This document shows, one piece after another, positions 4,435-46,562 of a DNA stretch of 64,000 bases. The first letter of the stretch is position 1; each line of letters begins with the position of its first letter. A program made the position numbers and the translations under genes. Location: the NCBI RefSeq assembly GCF_040958095.1, contig NC_091165.1, positions 29,092,878 through 29,156,877 of the forward strand. Reading direction: 5' to 3'. A model generated the notes under the pieces. That model worked only from the letters and a program-made list of their open reading frames with translations, was not told where the DNA came from and did not search any database. This DNA comes from Procambarus clarkii (taxonomy: Eukaryota > Arthropoda > Malacostraca > Decapoda > Cambaridae).

Positions 4435-4629
<195 letters not shown>

Positions 4630-4750
4630 AAATATGACCGAAAAAGTAAGATTAATAATTCTAACACGAATTTTCTCAATCTTTCGTACATTACGCTTCA
4701 CTGTTGGAGGTAAATAAAAAATCACTTCTCCAAAATTCATTTTTATTTCT

Positions 4751-4803
4751 AGTCTGACGCGACACGGGCGCGTTTCGTAAAACTTATTACATTTTCAAAG
4801 ACT
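4751..4803 (-). ncRNA. Inverted copy of the PLE hammerhead-like motif
   Basis: Exact reverse complement of the motif at 6476-6528, carried in the inverted left arm of the same element. Confidence 0.5.
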
Positions 4804-5339
4804 TCACAAATACACAACTGATTAGAACTTGCGTTTCCCTGATTTTATATCTACATTTGAGTGAGGTGGGAAGGGTGATGTGGCATTACATTTGAGTGAG
4901 GTGGGAAGGGTGATGTGGCATTAACACAAGACAGAACACTAGGGGATATTAATAGGGTATTAAAAGTATCAACACAAGACAGAACAGAAACAATGGGTAT
5001 TGAATAGAAGTGTTTGTAGAAAGCCTATTGGTCCATATTTCTTGATGCTTCTATATTGGAGCGGAGTCTTGAGGTGGGTAGAATATAGTTGTGCAATAAT
5101 TGGGTGTTGATTGCTGGTGTTGACTTCTTGATGTGTAGTGCCTCGCAAACGTCAAGCCGCCTGCTATCGCTGTATCTATCGATGATTTCTGTGTTGTTTA
5201 CTAGGATTTCTCTGGCGATGGTTTGGTTATGGGAAGAGATTATATGTTCCTTAATGGAGCCCTGTTGTTTATGCATCGTTAAACGCCTAGAAAGAGATGT
5301 TGTTGTCTTGCCTATATACTGGGTTTTTTGGAGCTTACA

Positions 5340-6254
5340 GTGCTGCGTTTCACTTACGAGACGGAAAAGGATGGGAAGCTGCCTTTTCTAGATGTAACAG
5401 TCATGGAAAAGGACGGAGGTTTCCACACTGCAGTCTACACAAAGGAAACAAACATAGGAGTGTGCCTAAATGCCAACAGCGACTGCCCTGACAGGTACAA
5501 GAGGAGTGTTGTTAACGCATACGTCGACCGTGCTCTTAGCCACAGCTCAGAATGGAAACAAGTCGACGAAGAACTCTGTAGGGTAAGGCAGGTCCTAGTC
5601 AATAACGGCTTCTCCAATGGTTTCATCGAAGACATCATAAGAAGGAAAGTGAAAAGCCATGCAACCTCCGAAGAGACAACTAACACAACACCTATACCCC
5701 CTATTAGACTATTTTACAGGAACTTCTTTTCCACAGCTCATAAAACAGAGGAAAGGGTCCTGAAAGATATTGTTAATAGAAACGTTATCCCTACAGACAA
5801 AAATCAGAGGATACAACTGACGATTTACTATAAAACCAGAAAAACGGCCAGCCTACTCATGAGAAACTCTCCAGACACAAAACAGAACGCTTTAAAAGAG
5901 ACTAACGTCGTCTATGCCTTCAAATGCCCACTTGGGGACTGTAAGCTCCAAAAAACCCAGTATATAGGCAAGACAACAACATCTCTTTCTAGGCGTTTAA
6001 CGATGCATAAACAACAGGGCTCCATTAAGGAACATATAATCTCTTCCCATAACCAAACCATCGCCAGAGAAATCCTAGTAAACAACACAGAAATCATCGA
6101 TAGATACAGCGATAGCAGGCGGCTTGACGTTTGCGAGGCACTACACATCAAGAAGTCAACACCAGCAATCAACACCCAATTATTGCACAACTATATTCTA
6201 CCCACCTCAAGACTCCGCTCCAATATAGAAGCATCAAGAAATATGGACCAATAG
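5340..6254 (+). pseudogene. PLE polyprotein fragment: RT C-terminus plus GIY-YIG endonuclease
   Basis: About 304 codons without a stop. The ATG at 5328 lies in the inverted arm, so it is not the native start; the element-derived frame begins at about 5340. Counting from that ATG, residues about 6-110 match the end of a Penelope RT (FTYETEKDGKLPFLDVTV, then VYTKET, then RYKRSVVNAYVDRA). Residues about 195-290 form the GIY-YIG domain: VVYAFKC in the GIY position, a C-x4-C pair (CPLGDC), QYIGKTTTSLSRRL with the YIG and the catalytic-type Arg, and CEALHIKK with the conserved Glu, followed by INTQ. In PLEs this endonuclease nicks target DNA for target-primed reverse transcription. The RT fingers and palm, with the catalytic Asp residues, are absent, so this copy cannot be autonomous. 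The lack of stops suggests a young insertion. Confidence 0.88.
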
Positions 6255-6475
6255 GCTTTCTACAAACACTTCTATTCAATACCCATTGTTTCTGTTCTGT
6301 CTTGTGTTGATACTTTTAATACCCTATTAATATCCCCTAGTGTTCTGTCTTGTGTTAATGCCACATCACCCTTCCCACCTCACTCAAATGTAATGCCACA
6401 TCACCCTTCCCACCTCACTCAAATGTAGATATAAAATCAGGGAAACGCAAGTTCTAATCAGTTATGTATTTGTGA

Positions 6476-6528
6476 AGTCTTTGAAAATGTAATAAGTTTT
6501 ACGAAACGCGCCCGTGTCGCGTCAGACT
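6476..6528 (+). ncRNA. Hammerhead-ribozyme-like motif in PLE 3' region
   Basis: Seen in order: agtct (6476-6480), a ttgaaaat box (6481-6488), stem II gtaa/ttac (6489-6492 with 6499-6502), gaaa (6503-6506), stem III acgcg/cgcgt (6506-6510 with 6518-6522), the gtc cleavage-type triplet (6521-6523), and agact (6524-6528), which pairs with agtct as stem I. Type I hammerheads are known in PLE terminal regions. Relative to the canonical CUGANGA box, C3 is U and G8 is A, and one extra U precedes stem II, so this copy may be inactive. Confidence 0.5.
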
Positions 6529-6689
6529 AGAAATAAAAATGAATTTTGGAGAAGTGATTTTTGATTTACCTCCAACAGTGAAGCGTAATGTACGAAAGAT
6601 TGAGAAAATTCGTGTTAGAATTATTAATCTTACTTTTTCGGTCATATTTAATAATATATGTCTACAGGAAAGACTGCTACCAAAATATA

Positions 6690-6691
<2 letters not shown>

Positions 6692-6757
<66 letters not shown>
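6692..6757. repeat. (TA)n microsatellite
   Basis: Follows the 3' end of the PLE, separated by about 30 bp. Confidence 0.95.

Positions 6758-8433: not shown

Positions 8434-8516
<83 letters not shown>
8434..8516. repeat. (TA)n microsatellite
   Basis: Left border of the inverted SINE-C array. Confidence 0.95.
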
Positions 8517-8517
<1 letters not shown>

Positions 8518-8519
<2 letters not shown>

Positions 8520-9620
8520 AACAAGCCTGAATGGTCCCCAGGACTATATGCGAATGAAAACTCACACCCCAGAAGTGACTCGAACCCATACTCCCAGAAG
8601 CAACGCAACTGGTAACTACAGGGCGCCTTAATCCGCTTGACCATCACGGCCGTCAAAAGGAAGTGATAGCCGAGGCTATTTGAGCCACTTCCCCGACGGC
8701 AACTCGGATGGTAATCTTGGGCATAGCATTTCACCAAATCACCTCATTCTTTGGGGCACACGTGAGGAACACAAATGCGAACAAGCCTGAATGGTCCCCA
8801 GGACTATATGCGAATGAAAACTCACACCCCAGAAGTGACTCGAACCCATACTCCCAGAAGCAACGCAACTGGTAACTACAGGGCGCCTTAATCCGCTTGA
8901 CCATCACGGCCGTCAAAAGGAAGTGATAGCCGAGGCTATTTGAGCCACTTCCCCGACGGCAACTCGGATGGTAATCTTGGGCATAGCATTTCACCAAATC
9001 ACCTCATTCTTTGGGGCACACGTGAGGAACACAAATGCGAACAAGCCTGAATGGTCCCCAGGACTATATGCGAATGAAAACTCACACCCCAGAAGTGACT
9101 CGAACCCATACTCCCAGAAGCAACGCAACTGGTAACTACAGGGCGCCTTAATCCGCTTGACCATCACGGCCGTCAAAAGGAAGTGATAGCCGAGGCTATT
9201 TGAGCCACTTCCCCGACGGCAACTCGGATGGTAATCTTGGGCATAGCATTTCACCAAATCACCTCATTCTTTGGGGCACACGTGAGGAACACAAATGCGA
9301 ACAAGCCTGAATGGTCCCCAGGACTATATGCGAATGAAAACTCACACCCCAGAAGTGACTCGAACCCATACTCCCAGAAGCAACGCAACTGGTAACTACA
9401 GGGCGCCTTAATCCGCTTGACCATCACGGCCGTCAAAAGGAAGTGATAGCCGAGGCTATTTGAGCCACTTCCCCGACGGCAACTCGGATGGTAATCTTGG
9501 GCATAGCATTTCACCAAATCACCTCATTCTTTGGGGCACACGTGAGGAACACAAATGCGAACAAGCCTGAATGGTCCCCAGGACTATATGCGAATGAAAA
9601 CTCACACCCCAGAAGTGACT
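8518..9620 (-). mobile_element. Tandem array of 260-bp tRNA-derived unit (family C), minus orientation
   Basis: Four full 260-bp copies (starts 8518, 8778, 9038, 9298) and a partial copy, apparently identical to each other. On the minus strand each unit holds a tRNA-like segment: ggccgtgatggtcaagcgga as the box A region, then gtatgggttcgagtcacttc as box B. The long variable-arm spacing resembles a Leu/Ser-type tRNA. The 88-codon frame that repeats across the units chains head to tail only because of the tandem structure and is not a gene. Confidence 0.85.
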
Positions 9621-10795
9621 CGGCTATCAAATAGCCTCGGCTATCACTTCCTTTTGACGGCCGTGATGGTCAAGCGGATTAAGGCGCCCTGTAGTTACCA
9701 GTTGCGTTGCTTCTGGGAGTATGGGTTCGAGTCACTTCTGGGGTGTGAGTTTTCATTCGCATATAGTCCTGGGGACCATTCAGGCTTGTTCGCATTTGTG
9801 TTCCTCACGTGTGCCCCAAAGAATGAGGTGATTTGGTGAAATGCTATGCCCAAGATTACCATCCGAGTTGCCGTCGGGGAAGTGGCTCAAATAGCCTCGG
9901 CTATCACTTCCTTTTGACGGCCGTGATGGTCAAGCGGATTAAGGCGCCCTGTAGTTACCAGTTGCGTTGCTTCTGGGAGTATGGGTTCGAGTCACTTCTG
10001 GGGTGTGAGTTTTCATTCGCATATAGTCCTGGGGACCATTCAGGCTTGTTCGCATTTGTGTTCCTCACGTGTGCCCCAAAGAATGAGGTGATTTGGTGAA
10101 ATGCTATGCCCAAGATTACCATCCGAGTTGCCGTCGGGGAAGTGGCTCAAATAGCCTCGGCTATCACTTCCTTTTGACGGCCGTGATGGTCAAGCGGATT
10201 AAGGCGCCCTGTAGTTACCAGTTGCGTTGCTTCTGGGAGTATGGGTTCGAGTCACTTCTGGGGTGTGAGTTTTCATTCGCATATAGTCCTGGGGACCATT
10301 CAGGCTTGTTCGCATTTGTGTTCCTCACGTGTGCCCCAAAGAATGAGGTGATTTGGTGAAATGCTATGCCCAAGATTACCATCCGAGTTGCCGTCGGGGA
10401 AGTGGCTCAAATAGCCTCGGCTATCACTTCCTTTTGACGGCCGTGATGGTCAAGCGGATTAAGGCGCCCTGTAGTTACCAGTTGCGTTGCTTCTGGGAGT
10501 ATGGGTTCGAGTCACTTCTGGGGTGTGAGTTTTCATTCGCATATAGTCCTGGGGACCATTCAGGCTTGTTCGCATTTGTGTTCCTCACGTGTGCCCCAAA
10601 GAATGAGGTGATTTGGTGAAATGCTATGCCCAAGATTACCATCCGAGTTGCCGTCGGGGAAGTGGCTCAAATAGCCTCGGCTATCACTTCCTTTTGACGG
10701 CCGTGATGGTCAAGCGGATTAAGGCGCCCTGTAGTTACCAGTTGCGTTGCTTCTGGGAGTATGGGTTCGAGTCACTTCTGGGGTGTGAGTTTTCA

Positions 10796-10796
<1 letters not shown>
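9621..10796 (+). mobile_element. Tandem array of 260-bp tRNA-derived unit (family C), plus orientation
   Basis: The same unit in the opposite orientation. The segment starting aaatagcctcgg recurs at 9629, 9889, 10149, 10409 and 10669; the last copy breaks off inside ttttcattc, where (AT)n takes over. With the preceding array it forms a head-to-head inverted repeat of about 2.28 kb. The switch lies at gaagtgactc, which is nearly the same as gaagtggctc in the opposite strand's unit, and a short extra cggctat follows, consistent with template switching. Confidence 0.85.

Positions 10797-10798
<2 letters not shown>

Positions 10799-10867
<69 letters not shown>
10799..10867. repeat. (AT)n microsatellite
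   Basis: Begins exactly where the unit would read cattcgcatatag, so it probably expanded from the internal catatag. Confidence 0.95.
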
Positions 10868-14120: not shown

Positions 14121-14293
14121 GACCAGACCACATACTAGAAGGTGAAGGGACGACGACGTTTCGGTGCGTCCTTGATCATTCTCAAGTCGATTGAGAATGG
14201 TCCAGGACGGACCGAAACGTCGTCGTCCCTTCACCTTCTAGTGTTTGGTCTGGTCAACTTACTTTAGCTACGTTATTGTGACTCATCGCCTGC
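14121..14293 (-). mobile_element. Foldback element with 13-bp target duplication
   Basis: 173-bp insertion flanked by attaggcttctct at 14108-14120 and 14294-14306. It is largely palindromic: one arm starts gaccagaccacatactagaa, the other ends tagtgtttggtctggtc, with the tail gcaggcgatgagtcacaata on one side only (minus-strand reading). The plus-reading arm carries a hammerhead-like module at 14191-14227: ttgagaat, stem II ggtcc/ggacc, gaaa, stem III acg/cgt, gtc. Removing the insertion and one duplication restores continuity of the PLE fragment around it. Confidence 0.85.
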
Positions 14294-14334
14294 ATTAGGC
14301 TTCTCTCGTCATTTATACACATAACCAGACTATC

Positions 14335-15290: not shown

Positions 15291-15590
15291 AATTGTTACT
15301 AACTACTATTCCCCCCCCCTCACACACACACACCCAGGAAGCAACCTATTATTGGCATTAGCAGCCAATTTGTGCACAACTATATTCTACCCACTTCAAG
15401 ACTCCGAACCAATATGAAAGCAGCAAGAGGAAGTATGGGCCAATAGGCCTTCTGCAGTTATTTCCATTCTTATGTTCTCATTACCCAGTGTTTCGTGTTC
15501 TGTCTTATGTTTCACCTCACCCAAAACTTTTGTGACACATCACCTCCCCTAAAAACGAGTATAAGTAAAAATGTATTTTGTGTGTAAATT

Positions 15591-15642
15591 AAGTCTTTGA
15601 AAATGTAATAAGGAATTACGAAACGCGTTTAGGCGTCAGACT
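15591..15642 (+). ncRNA. Hammerhead-like motif in decayed PLE 3' region
   Basis: aagtct, ttgaaaat box, stem II gtaat/attac (15605-15609 with 15615-15619), gaaa (15620-15623), stem III acgc/gcgt (15623-15626 with 15633-15636), gtc (15635-15637), agact. Stem and loop lengths differ from the 6476 copy but pairing is kept, which argues for a conserved RNA fold. Confidence 0.5.
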
Positions 15643-15765
15643 AGGAATAAAAAGAATGAATGTTGGAGAGTTACTTTATCAATTACCCTCGACAGTGAAG
15701 AAGAACGTAAGAAATGTTGAGATGATTCGTGTTAGAATTATTAATCTAACCCTTTCAGTCATACT

Positions 15766-15773
<8 letters not shown>

Positions 15774-15860
<87 letters not shown>
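15774..15860. repeat. (TA)n microsatellite
   Basis: Abuts the PLE 3' end, as at 6692. Confidence 0.95.
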
Positions 15861-21510: not shown

Positions 21511-22428
21511 TATGGCCACGAGTATTATTTCCCTAACCTGTGCTATTCCCAGTAGGAACATAACTTCGGATGGATATATATATCGTGAAAAGCAAAGGAC
21601 AGGAGTGACTAATGGAGCTGGAAACAGAAGCAACACAACAATTATCTTGCAATTTGGGACGCCCTTCTTTACCGCACCAGGAAGAAGAACAGATGCCAAA
21701 GTATCGGAGAAAGTTTAGAAAGGTTTACAAGTTAGTGTGAACCGCAGAGGAAAACTGCTCATTTGGAATGTAAACTACCATTATTGGTACCCTATAAGAG
21801 TACCTCTATCATGCGTATCAGTCTATAATGCACCTCTTGTAGCAATCTATAATACATCTCTCACAATTTTAATTTTATTTACGTCTATTCTTATAACTTT
21901 TGAACTATGTACACAAAATGGTTACTGGAGGTTCCAATGGAAGTTTGCTGACGAGTTTAGCAACATCTTTGATAAGTGTAAAGACAAGTTCTTCACTATT
22001 TGACTCACTCACTCCTTCTATGTCTCGTGTCGCCTCATTGACACGTTCCGTAGTTTGCTTCTTTTGGTGTCTAATAGTTATACTCTGCATGTCTCTTGGT
22101 TCGTCACTATACCCGGCCATCGATACGGTGATAATCCTAAACAAACACACACACACACACAACCATTATCACCATAAGAAGCTTAACTACACAGGTAACT
22201 ACACTACACACTACCTTAATTATCTTCAGGACACACACACACATCTTCATTACTATAAAGATTTACACGATTATCCTCATCATTGTCACTATCTTTATTA
22301 AATACTGTCTCTTCTTCATCACCCGGTCACCGCTGGTTGCCACTATCTACCACTATCATCATCACTACCCTTCCTTCTGTCTCCTTCGCTAGTTTCTTTT
22401 CACCACATTCCTTACCCTTCATCACCAT
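21511..22428. other. Unassigned AT/AC-rich DNA
   Basis: Short (AC)n near 22142-22160 and 22229-22242. No gene recognised. Confidence 0.4.
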
Positions 22429-22610
22429 ATGCAGGCGATGAGTCACAATAACGTGGCTAAAGTATGTTGACCAGACCACACACTAGAAGGTGAAGGGACG
22501 ACGACGTTTCGGTCCGTCCTGGACCATTCTCAAGACAATCGACTTGAGAATGGTCCAGGACGGACCGAAACGTCGTCGTCCCTTCACCTTCTAGTGTGTG
22601 GTCTGGTCAA
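22429..22610 (+). mobile_element. Foldback element with 13-bp target duplication (best copy)
   Basis: 182-bp insertion flanked by ccttcatcaccat at 22416-22428 and 22611-22623. Order: gcaggcgatgagtcacaata head, arm 1 from gaccagaccacacactagaa, a short centre (aagacaatcgactt), and arm 2 ending ctagtgtgtggtctggtc. Each arm carries the hammerhead-like module, plus strand 22544-22580 and minus strand 22497-22533: ttgagaat, stem II ggtcc-aggac-ggacc, gaaa, stem III acg-tcgt-cgt, then c after gu. No coding capacity. The long duplications favour retroposition over a cut-and-paste MITE. Confidence 0.85.
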
Positions 22611-22623
22611 CCTTCATCACCAT

Positions 22624-30219: not shown

Positions 30220-30367
30220 GCAGGCGATGAGTCACAATAACGTGGCTAAAGTATGTTGACCAGACCATACACTAGAAGGTGAAGGGACGACGACATTTCG
30301 GTCCGTCCTGGACCATTCTCAAGTCGAAACGTCGTCGTCCCTTCACCTTCTAGTGTGTGGTCTGGTC
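30220..30367 (+). mobile_element. Foldback element, internally deleted copy
   Basis: Head gcaggcgatgagtcacaata, arm 1 intact, arm 2 lacking the ttgagaatggtccaggacgg part: the sequence jumps from ctcaagtc to gaaacgtcgtcgtccc. Flanks tttagatgtgat (30208-30219) and ttcagacgtggt (30368-30379) match at 9 of 12 positions with only transitions, consistent with an aged target duplication. Confidence 0.78.
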
Positions 30368-44039: not shown

Positions 44040-44485
44040 CCGGACATTTCACGACCCGGTAAGGACAGACCTACAGAGAGATGTAATTAGTCGCACGTGA
44101 AATATAGGTAGAAAATAAAACCATCGCATGATAAAAGACGCACTCCAGCGATACAGGAAAGAACTGAGACGGTGAGGGAAGAAGCAAGGCAGAGAGCACT
44201 TGATTGAGTCGAAGTACACACATACATAACTCCTCGACCGAGTAATCTGCGGAACACCTCACGACTGGCTGGAGGGATAACTAATGTGTCCATATGCTAA
44301 GATCTTGGTGAGAGTATAGGAGGAGAAATCGGGAAATAATACCTTAAACACCAGATGACTCTGAAGGACCTGTGTAGAATACGTGAATGCTGTCAAGGGG
44401 AGATTGAAAGCAATGTTCGGACTGTAAAATAAGGGGTGCGTGAAGGTATATTTAGACTGGAATTGGGGAACCGGTAAAAAATAAG
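44040..44485. other. Unassigned DNA
   Basis: No gene recognised. Confidence 0.4.
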
Positions 44486-44730
44486 AGAAGGGCCAGACGT
44501 TTCGCTCCATCCAAGACCGTCATCAAGTCGTGGACGGAACCGAAACGTCGTCATTCGCTTTATTTTCAAATGTGCGTAGGGGTTGGATGACTAATTTTCA
44601 GCTCCGTTATTGTGGCTTTCTGTCTTCATAGGAATACATTAAAAATGCCAATGGCCTATATGAGGCCACTCCTATTTATATCGAACACAAACTCATTCCT
44701 ATATTCCAGACCTACGCTTGACGTAATCCA
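44486..44730 (+). mobile_element. Foldback element type B with PLE-like right flank
   Basis: Arms gacgtttcgctccatccaag and cggaaccgaaacgtcgtcat around tcatcaagtcg. On the minus strand the left arm reads ttgatga (44520-44526), then cggtcttggatggagc, then gaaac (44499-44503), the closest match here to a hammerhead CUGAUGA box. Right flank tgactaattttcagctccgt is shared with 28876-29020; then gccaatggcctatatgaggc resembles PLE 3' regions. Confidence 0.55.
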
Positions 44731-46353: not shown

Positions 46354-46562
46354 GGCAGATGATGAGTGACAATAACATGGCTGAAAATATGATGACCAGA
46401 CCACACACCAGAAGATGTAGAGACGACTACGATGTTTCGCTCCGTCTTGGATCACTATCAAGTCGATTGAGTTGATAATATTATCACAATCGACTTGACA
46501 ATGGTCCAGGACGGACCGAAACGTCGTCGTCTCTTCATCTTCTGATGTGTGGTTTACCCATC
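46354..46562 (+). mobile_element. Foldback element, diverged copy with target duplication
   Basis: Head gcagatgatgagtgacaata, arms with gatgtttcgctccgtcttgg and ttgacaatggtccaggacgg then accgaaacgtcgtcgtc. Flanks ttatacttttttt (46341-46353) and ttattcttttttc (46563-46575) match at 11 of 13 positions. The hammerhead-like box here reads ttgacaat. Confidence 0.75.

Follow-up and report, generated by a model that had tools for sequence, protein, structure and literature searches.

The four short palindromes in the 64,000-nucleotide stretch of Procambarus clarkii DNA analysed here (the window) are very short Penelope-like retrotransposon insertions. Judged from its sequence, the unit that forms their arms is the 3' end of a coding Penelope-like element (PLE), PLE-A, and comprises the pLTR and the start of the next ORF; the "head" on one outer end of each window copy is the PLE "tail". 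We suggest, with a probability of roughly 0.7, that each palindrome represents one PLE-A integration in which reverse transcription was primed from both target strands and the two cDNAs were joined.

An earlier note on this DNA had described four copies with inverted arms, a one-sided head and flanking repeats, and all of these are present in the window:

14121 to 14293, plus strand: copy 1; left arm tailless, right arm tailed, centre TCTCAAGTCGATTGAGAA
14108 to 14120 and 14294 to 14306, unstranded: target site duplication (TSD) of copy 1, ATTAGGCTTCTCT, 13/13 match
22429 to 22610, minus strand: copy 2, by sequence a two-armed PLE-A insertion, with an exact centre also found genome-wide
22429 to about 22466: tail of copy 2, followed by the tailed arm to about 22534 and the tailless arm at about 22535 to 22610
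22416 to 22428 and 22611 to 22623, unstranded: TSD of copy 2, CCTTCATCACCAT, 13/13 match
22497 to 22533, minus strand: hammerhead-like module on the tailed arm of copy 2, with UUGAGAAU, stem II, GAAA, a short stem III and GUC
22544 to 22580, plus strand: hammerhead-like module on the tailless arm of copy 2
30220 to 30367, minus strand: copy 3; the left end is the tail, the tailless arm is 5'-truncated at CGAAACG, TSD 9/12
46354 to 46562, minus strand: copy 4, older; the left end is the tail, TSD 11/13
44440 to 44620, plus strand: decayed two-armed relative, its right-hand tail recognisable by eye

The head, of the GCAGGCGATGAGTCACAATA type and ~36 nt long, is on one outer end of each copy and absent from the other. 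A 13/13 match of the flanks, allowing a slide of ±6, arises at 4.2% of random window places, and because the window is full of microsatellites, its repeats alone are not decisive. The order UUGANAAU, GGUCC/GGACC, GAAA, ACG/CGU and GUC is carried by copies 1, 2 and 4 on each of their arms (with one module arm decayed in copy 1 and one in copy 4) and by copy 3 on its tailed arm. In the other arm of copy 3, which by eye starts at CGAAACG, the box and most of stem II are missing; thus, the module, which had been ascribed to every arm, is on 7/8 arms. Similarly, the variation noted at the seventh core base is confined to copy 4, which has U on one arm and C on the other, with G in all other arms. 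The centre of copy 4 extends further upstream, and the GAAGATG..GAGAC letters common to its two arms are absent from copies 1-3. On the tailed arm of copy 2, the sequence has an ATG at the start of stem II.

Many genome copies extend upstream of the unit into common sequence (L107-L109, L112, L114, L116, L118, L121, L144). L166 and L109, which are overlapping stretches of one contig (C1:7728500-7729980), contain a reading frame followed by the pLTR, the module and the tail. This frame was read in its C-terminal part (L166:3-980; 325 aa, open at the fetched edge, with the 5' end beyond the fetched stretch), where RYVDD and a GIY-YIG stretch, GVYSISC..YFGETGRTL, are seen by eye. The Pfam GIY-YIG model gives E 5e-4 and 20.6 bits, just under the 22.6 cut-off, and tblastn of PLE-B, a second PLE family, against the L166 frame gives E 1e-7. 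Because this longer copy runs into the PLE frame, we regard the unit as the pLTR/ORF-start junction of a coding element. As in EN+ PLEs, there is an RT/GIY-YIG ORF in the parent, inverted pLTR arms with one tail, a TSD and a hammerhead motif at the pLTR/ORF junction, with a putative start codon at the start of stem II (UUGANA-AUG-GUCC in PLE-A, UUGAAA-AUG in PLE-B). The earlier note was right about a retroelement, its link to PLEs and a hammerhead-like module, the last being one that Penelope-like elements are known to carry. The separate non-coding retrozyme family proposed there is not supported, as longer copies continue upstream, at least one of them (L109/L166) into the PLE frame.

PLE-B and a third PLE are themselves in the window:

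4615 to 6707, plus strand: PLE-B, a large head-to-head insertion with 727-nt arms that are 99% complementary
5343 to 6251, plus strand: C-terminal reading frame of PLE-B, 303 aa, GIY-YIG below the Pfam cut-off
6481 to 6523, plus strand: hammerhead-like module of PLE-B by sequence, U3-A8
15362 to 15824, plus strand: third, older PLE 3' end (the 15.6-kb copy), about 75% identical to PLE-B, beside an AT microsatellite
15597 to 15637: module of the 15.6-kb copy by sequence, U3-A8

The right arm of the window PLE-B has a tail of about 35 nt and the left arm is without one; the flanks of its module, AGUCU/AGACU, could form a 5-bp stem I (by eye). PLE-B is a very young and very abundant PLE: there were 108,065 first-look candidates in the genome, and 130/130 scored matches are 99-100% identical; an 839-aa open frame is present in many of them, and many form head-to-head pairs. 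Ten pairs were chosen by eye from 35 rows, the window copy and L041 being one pair; 7/10 have one tail, 3/10 have two (L057, L060, L102), and none is tailless. Thus, the one-tail arrangement is looser in PLE-B than in PLE-A (below), although L102, L057 and L060 may each be two insertions. The window also contains a pair of inverted arrays at 8515-10805, in which a 260-bp unit is repeated 4.3 and 4.5 times, with 1078-nt arms that are 100% complementary; this is either a head-to-head tandem array or an assembly artefact. The 260-bp unit carries a GGGTTCGAGTC box like that of a tRNA-derived SINE; ARAGORN found no tRNA in the window.

The host genome searched (4.03 Gb) has 39,649 exact matches to the 24-mer GGACGGACCGAAACGTCGTCGTCC (19,924 + 19,725; reversed control, 0), and from these core matches two-armed PLE-A insertions probably number in the thousands; a search for the unit in viral contigs, other genome contigs and phages found nothing. 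Three sets of loci were analysed. The similarity set comprises the 40 best of 1262 candidates matching copy 2; it favors copy 2 and the tail of that copy, and it is tallied apart unless stated otherwise. The pattern sample comprises 30 places plus 5 more from the same list, with the letters ACAATCGACTTGANAATGG required. The 24-mer sample comprises 55 loci from the start of the GGACGGACCGAAACGTCGTCGTCC match list, a pattern blind to tail and centre. Because it omits places already in the pattern sample and several in evident repeat clusters, the two samples are reported jointly and separately. Removal of 23 likely duplicates by their flanks reduced the 130 rows over the three sets to 107 loci. 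Positions such as 289, ~255 and 174-189 are coordinates on the reference unit.

The 193 outer ends from all sets fall into two clusters, with 90 at 251-266, 99 at 275-289 (75 of them at 289) and 4 elsewhere, and therefore define tail borders about 35 nt apart. In the pattern and 24-mer samples together, neither of which was selected for tails, 43 of the 47 unique two-armed loci have exactly one tail and none has two; the other four (L090, L113, L124, L150) are irregular, L124 being tailless on both arms. If the two ends were independent, one tail at 43/43 loci (irregular loci excluded) would have a probability of about 1e-13. The single-armed copies in the same samples comprise 13 tailed and 8 tailless ones. 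In the similarity set, which lies outside the 47, 38 loci are one-tailed and L009, with an extra tail piece, is read as two-tailed. We found no report of a one-tail rule in the literature searched, some key PLE papers being beyond its reach. While PLE anatomy and an optional single tail are already published, this near-strict rule is the useful part.

TSD-like repeats with a score of at least 8 flank 72 of the 85 two-armed loci, similarity set included, as against 0.4% for swapped flanks, and 46 of these 72 are 12-14 bp long. Thus, the genome copies decide what the window alone could not: the flanking duplications of the earlier note are TSDs of a staggered cut. The 61 clear-TSD sites, which include those of the similarity set, often have A at -3/-2 to the left (0.52, 0.49) and T at +1/+2 to the right (0.61, 0.54). 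Because C is rare at the last base of the TSD (0.03) and G at the first two (0.10, 0.03), this mirror image is only approximate inside the TSD.

The inner cDNA ends are also clustered. In pairs of the 24-mer sample, the inner ends of 46/60 arms lie at 174-189, ~10 nt upstream of the box. When pairs and singles are combined, a single one of 76 cDNA 5' ends lies at 216-228, the predicted cut region; with the pattern sample added, 89 of 115 ends are at 170-190, 7, from copies that exceed the reference in length, are at ≤10 and 1 is at 216-228. With the 5' ends away from the cut, nearly all templates were therefore used uncut by the module, which matches the lizard PLE, for which unprocessed RNA is the main substrate in vitro (PMC11167929). 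The clustered 5' end looks like a transcript start, the alternative being a strong stop. The possibility of an additional, cap-derived G at the 5' end was weighed but not counted.

The module core UUGANAAU has U3-A8 where hammerheads have C3-G8, a feature that the earlier note missed. U3-A8 is a natural covariation of C3-G8 that is active in vitro, according to the available part of one report (PMC3088659). With the PLE-A stem II pattern, U3-A8 has 45,917 matches, C3 with A8 or G8 has 528 (2 of about 100 listed C3 matches are C3-G8) and U3-G8 has 192; the case for U3-A8 as a selected covariation inside PLE-A is weak. The same core is common to PLE-A, PLE-B and the 15.6-kb copy, with different stem letters in the latter two. 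Across 15 modules, 12 of which are C3-G8 modules hand-picked from 44 listed places of a search designed for C3-G8, the strands of stem II pair with their own partners at 60/75 positions compared to a mean of 44.2 and a maximum of 58 after shuffling. Stem I of PLE-A has 3 bp only (by eye). The Rfam hammerhead models gave no match at the gathering score in the whole window, and none at E≤10 in copy 2 or in the module regions of PLE-B, the 15.6-kb copy and one PLE-A copy. Matches of copy 2 to microRNA families, all below gathering scores, were dismissed as a hairpin effect only. Rare PLE-like modules with a C3-G8 core and other stem II letters (C14, C17, C20, C33, C39, C40, C45, C51, C59, C84) are possibly from several older PLE families. 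The RNA of the palindrome is predicted to fold as one ~70-bp hairpin (-148.4 kcal/mol, z -20.7), which speaks against the proposed switch between hairpin and ribozyme. Because of this single long hairpin, it seems likelier that the palindrome, once inserted, is a product than that it functions as an RNA.

These data bear on two readings in which the short element would be a family in its own right. In the one, a retrozyme-like non-coding family would have its unit set by hammerhead self-cleavage and pass through a circular RNA intermediate. The module order and stems do resemble those of minimal PLE-type hammerheads, the natural U3-A8 hammerheads in the accessible part of PMC3088659 lend this idea some plausibility, and the RNA size is within the retrozyme range. 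However, the unit continues into the PLE frame, the 5' ends avoid the predicted cut, Rfam hammerhead matches are lacking in the regions searched, and no second same-strand core unit was found within the ~200-bp flanks of 55 loci (L105-L159); same-strand exceptions are the extra unit of L079 and a pair of units at C1:18.806 Mb, spaced by 550 bp. We therefore consider this reading highly improbable, and the positions of the 5' ends give no support to unit ends made by a ribozyme. In the other, a palindromic non-autonomous family (foldback/SINE-like) would be copied as a palindrome by PLE proteins. In its favor, the exact centre of copy 2 occurs 166 times in the genome and in several subfamilies, and the best 40 of 1262 candidates, though similarity-picked, match nearly the whole of copy 2. 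By contrast, inner junctions (defined by BLAST-placed inner ends plus gap) form 25 classes in the 30 pairs of the 24-mer sample, one class having 6 members, and 17 classes in the 17 pairs of the pattern sample; 166 copies would be on the order of 1% of the two-armed copies implied by the 39,649 core matches; and single-armed and long copies are common, at 16/46 unique loci of the 24-mer sample. No arm-side-specific variants shared by many copies were seen in the variable columns tested. On this evidence, copying of the palindrome as such, which the palindromic form in the earlier note would imply, is improbable. The near full-length matches of the 40 scored candidates to copy 2 had appeared to contradict an independent origin, but these candidates were chosen for likeness to copy 2, with its exact centre letters in 28/39 retained loci of the similarity set, and the pattern and 24-mer samples show varied centres.

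More serious is the possibility of self-priming, in which a small palindrome at the end of a cDNA or antisense RNA lets the molecule fold back and copy itself, so that both arms derive from it alone. It is the mechanism preferred in the available part of the rotifer PLE study (PMC3846280); the 5' end of the unit, ACAATCGACTTG, is by eye nearly self-complementary around TCGA; and some centres resemble simple hairpin loops. It would also account for the concordance between the arms of a copy. The subfamily dinucleotide is the same on both arms at 34/41 loci (CC versus not-CC, Fisher 5e-5) and at 32/39 in the similarity set (Fisher 3e-4), and copies with the exact centre of copy 2 have CC on both arms in 18 cases, AC on both in 5, CT on both in 1 and unlike letters in 6. 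Differences between the arms within copies total 85 compared to a permuted mean of 131.9 (minimum 110), and 59 compared to 70.3 (minimum 61) in the similarity set. However, self-priming does not explain the one-tail rule because copy-back arms should end alike, with two tails or none. Moreover, inserts of at least 4 nt separate the arms at 20/47 loci (BLAST-placed ends); in all, the arms overlap in 14, abut in 4 and are joined with inserted letters in 12 of the 30 pairs of the 24-mer sample, and overlap in 5 and have inserts in 12 of the 17 pairs of the pattern sample. We therefore consider self-priming unlikely. Taken together, the varied centres and concordant arms indicate that most palindromes probably arose independently, with one RNA, or RNAs of one subfamily, as the template.

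In the two-sided priming model that we prefer, the PLE protein, carrying PLE RNA, would cut A/T-rich target sites on both strands, leaving about 12-14 bp between the two cuts, and reverse transcription would start inside the ORF beginning from both target ends, with one end priming at the far tail border (289) and the second at the near one (~255). Each cDNA would usually extend to a single region, ~10 nt upstream of the box, that probably marks the 5' end of a PLE transcript; this transcript would start between TC and ACAATCGAC. The two cDNA ends would then be joined by microhomology or with small inserts, and the outcome would be head-to-head arms with one tail, a mostly new centre and a TSD round the whole. 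Thus, priming from two sides at the tail borders would account at once for the TSD, the varied centres, the single tail and the head-to-head orientation of the arms. Support comes from PLE-B, which is likewise head-to-head and mostly one-tailed, and from the lizard PLE, which cleaves and extends both strands and starts reverse transcription at two tail-bounding sites (PMC11167929). Inverted pLTRs, an optional tail on one of them and TSDs of 8-10 bp are also described in the available part of the rotifer study (PMC3846280). On the other side, PLE-B is not strict, the irregular loci (L090, L113, L124, L150) and the two-tailed L009 of the similarity set fit poorly, one junction class recurs in 6/30 pairs and the centre of copy 2 recurs across the genome. 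The concordant arms could instead reflect one folded cDNA or later arm-to-arm conversion. At L079, a PLE-A insertion has three units, two of them in the same direction, which suggests a template jump.

More tentatively, and with slightly less than even odds in our view, a single RNA may be held in the PLE particle by a dimer whose two docking sites are fixed; each strand would then always be primed at its own position on that RNA, ~35 nt apart. If so, integration would be inherently two-sided and asymmetric, the tail would measure how far apart the two active sites are, and complete palindromes would arise from short transcripts in one step. We know of no other retroelement that works by such a two-site dimer.

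How PLEs integrate, and how a tail comes to be on one side of inverted repeats, is debated. As far as the available text of the rotifer study goes, self-priming was argued for in 2013 (PMC3846280), while the in vitro study of the lizard element in 2024 reported two start sites and both-strand extension (PMC11167929). The genome analysed here appears to hold thousands of tiny, near-complete records of such events within about 200 bp each, every one of which documents the target, both start sites, the probable transcript end and the joint. The mode of integration thus becomes a counting problem, and the first count favors two-sided priming.

Compared to known systems, PLE-A is overall similar to Penelope/Poseidon-type PLEs, represented by rotifer Pen (PMC3846280, in its available part) and lizard PAc (PMC11167929), with which it shares a GIY-YIG ORF, TSDs, A/T-rich targets, a pLTR reaching the ORF start, an optional 30-40-nt tail on one inverted pLTR and a hammerhead motif that has the putative start codon at its stem II. 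In the lizard PLE, the ATG is at the start of stem II and the optional 30-40-bp tail is bounded by the two RT starts (PMC11167929). However, most sampled PLE-A insertions have only ~80-115 nt per arm and follow a near-strict one-tail rule, differing in this from Pen, as far as its available description goes, and from PAc, and their TSDs are mostly 12-14 bp long, whereas those in the accessible part of the rotifer study are 8-10 bp (PMC3846280). Animal retrozymes, as the available part of their description has it, are likewise small, contain a hammerhead-like module, co-occur with PLEs and have TSDs of >4 bp, and their units are repeated head to tail, contain canonical type I ribozymes and give circular RNAs (PMC7229834). 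By contrast, the PLE-A units are in inverted orientation, belong to a coding PLE and are not delimited by a ribozyme cut. The C3-G8 to U3-A8 swap is the same as in natural hammerheads, of which the available part of PMC3088659 gives several examples. Here, it is found in one module pattern with tens of thousands of matches in one genome, and also in PLE-B and the 15.6-kb copy. In the twin priming of LINEs, two cDNAs from two target strands are joined inside the element, and the products are inverted or deleted single copies. In PLE-A, by contrast, the two cDNAs would overlap over their full length, each beginning at one of two fixed sites separated by about 35 nt.
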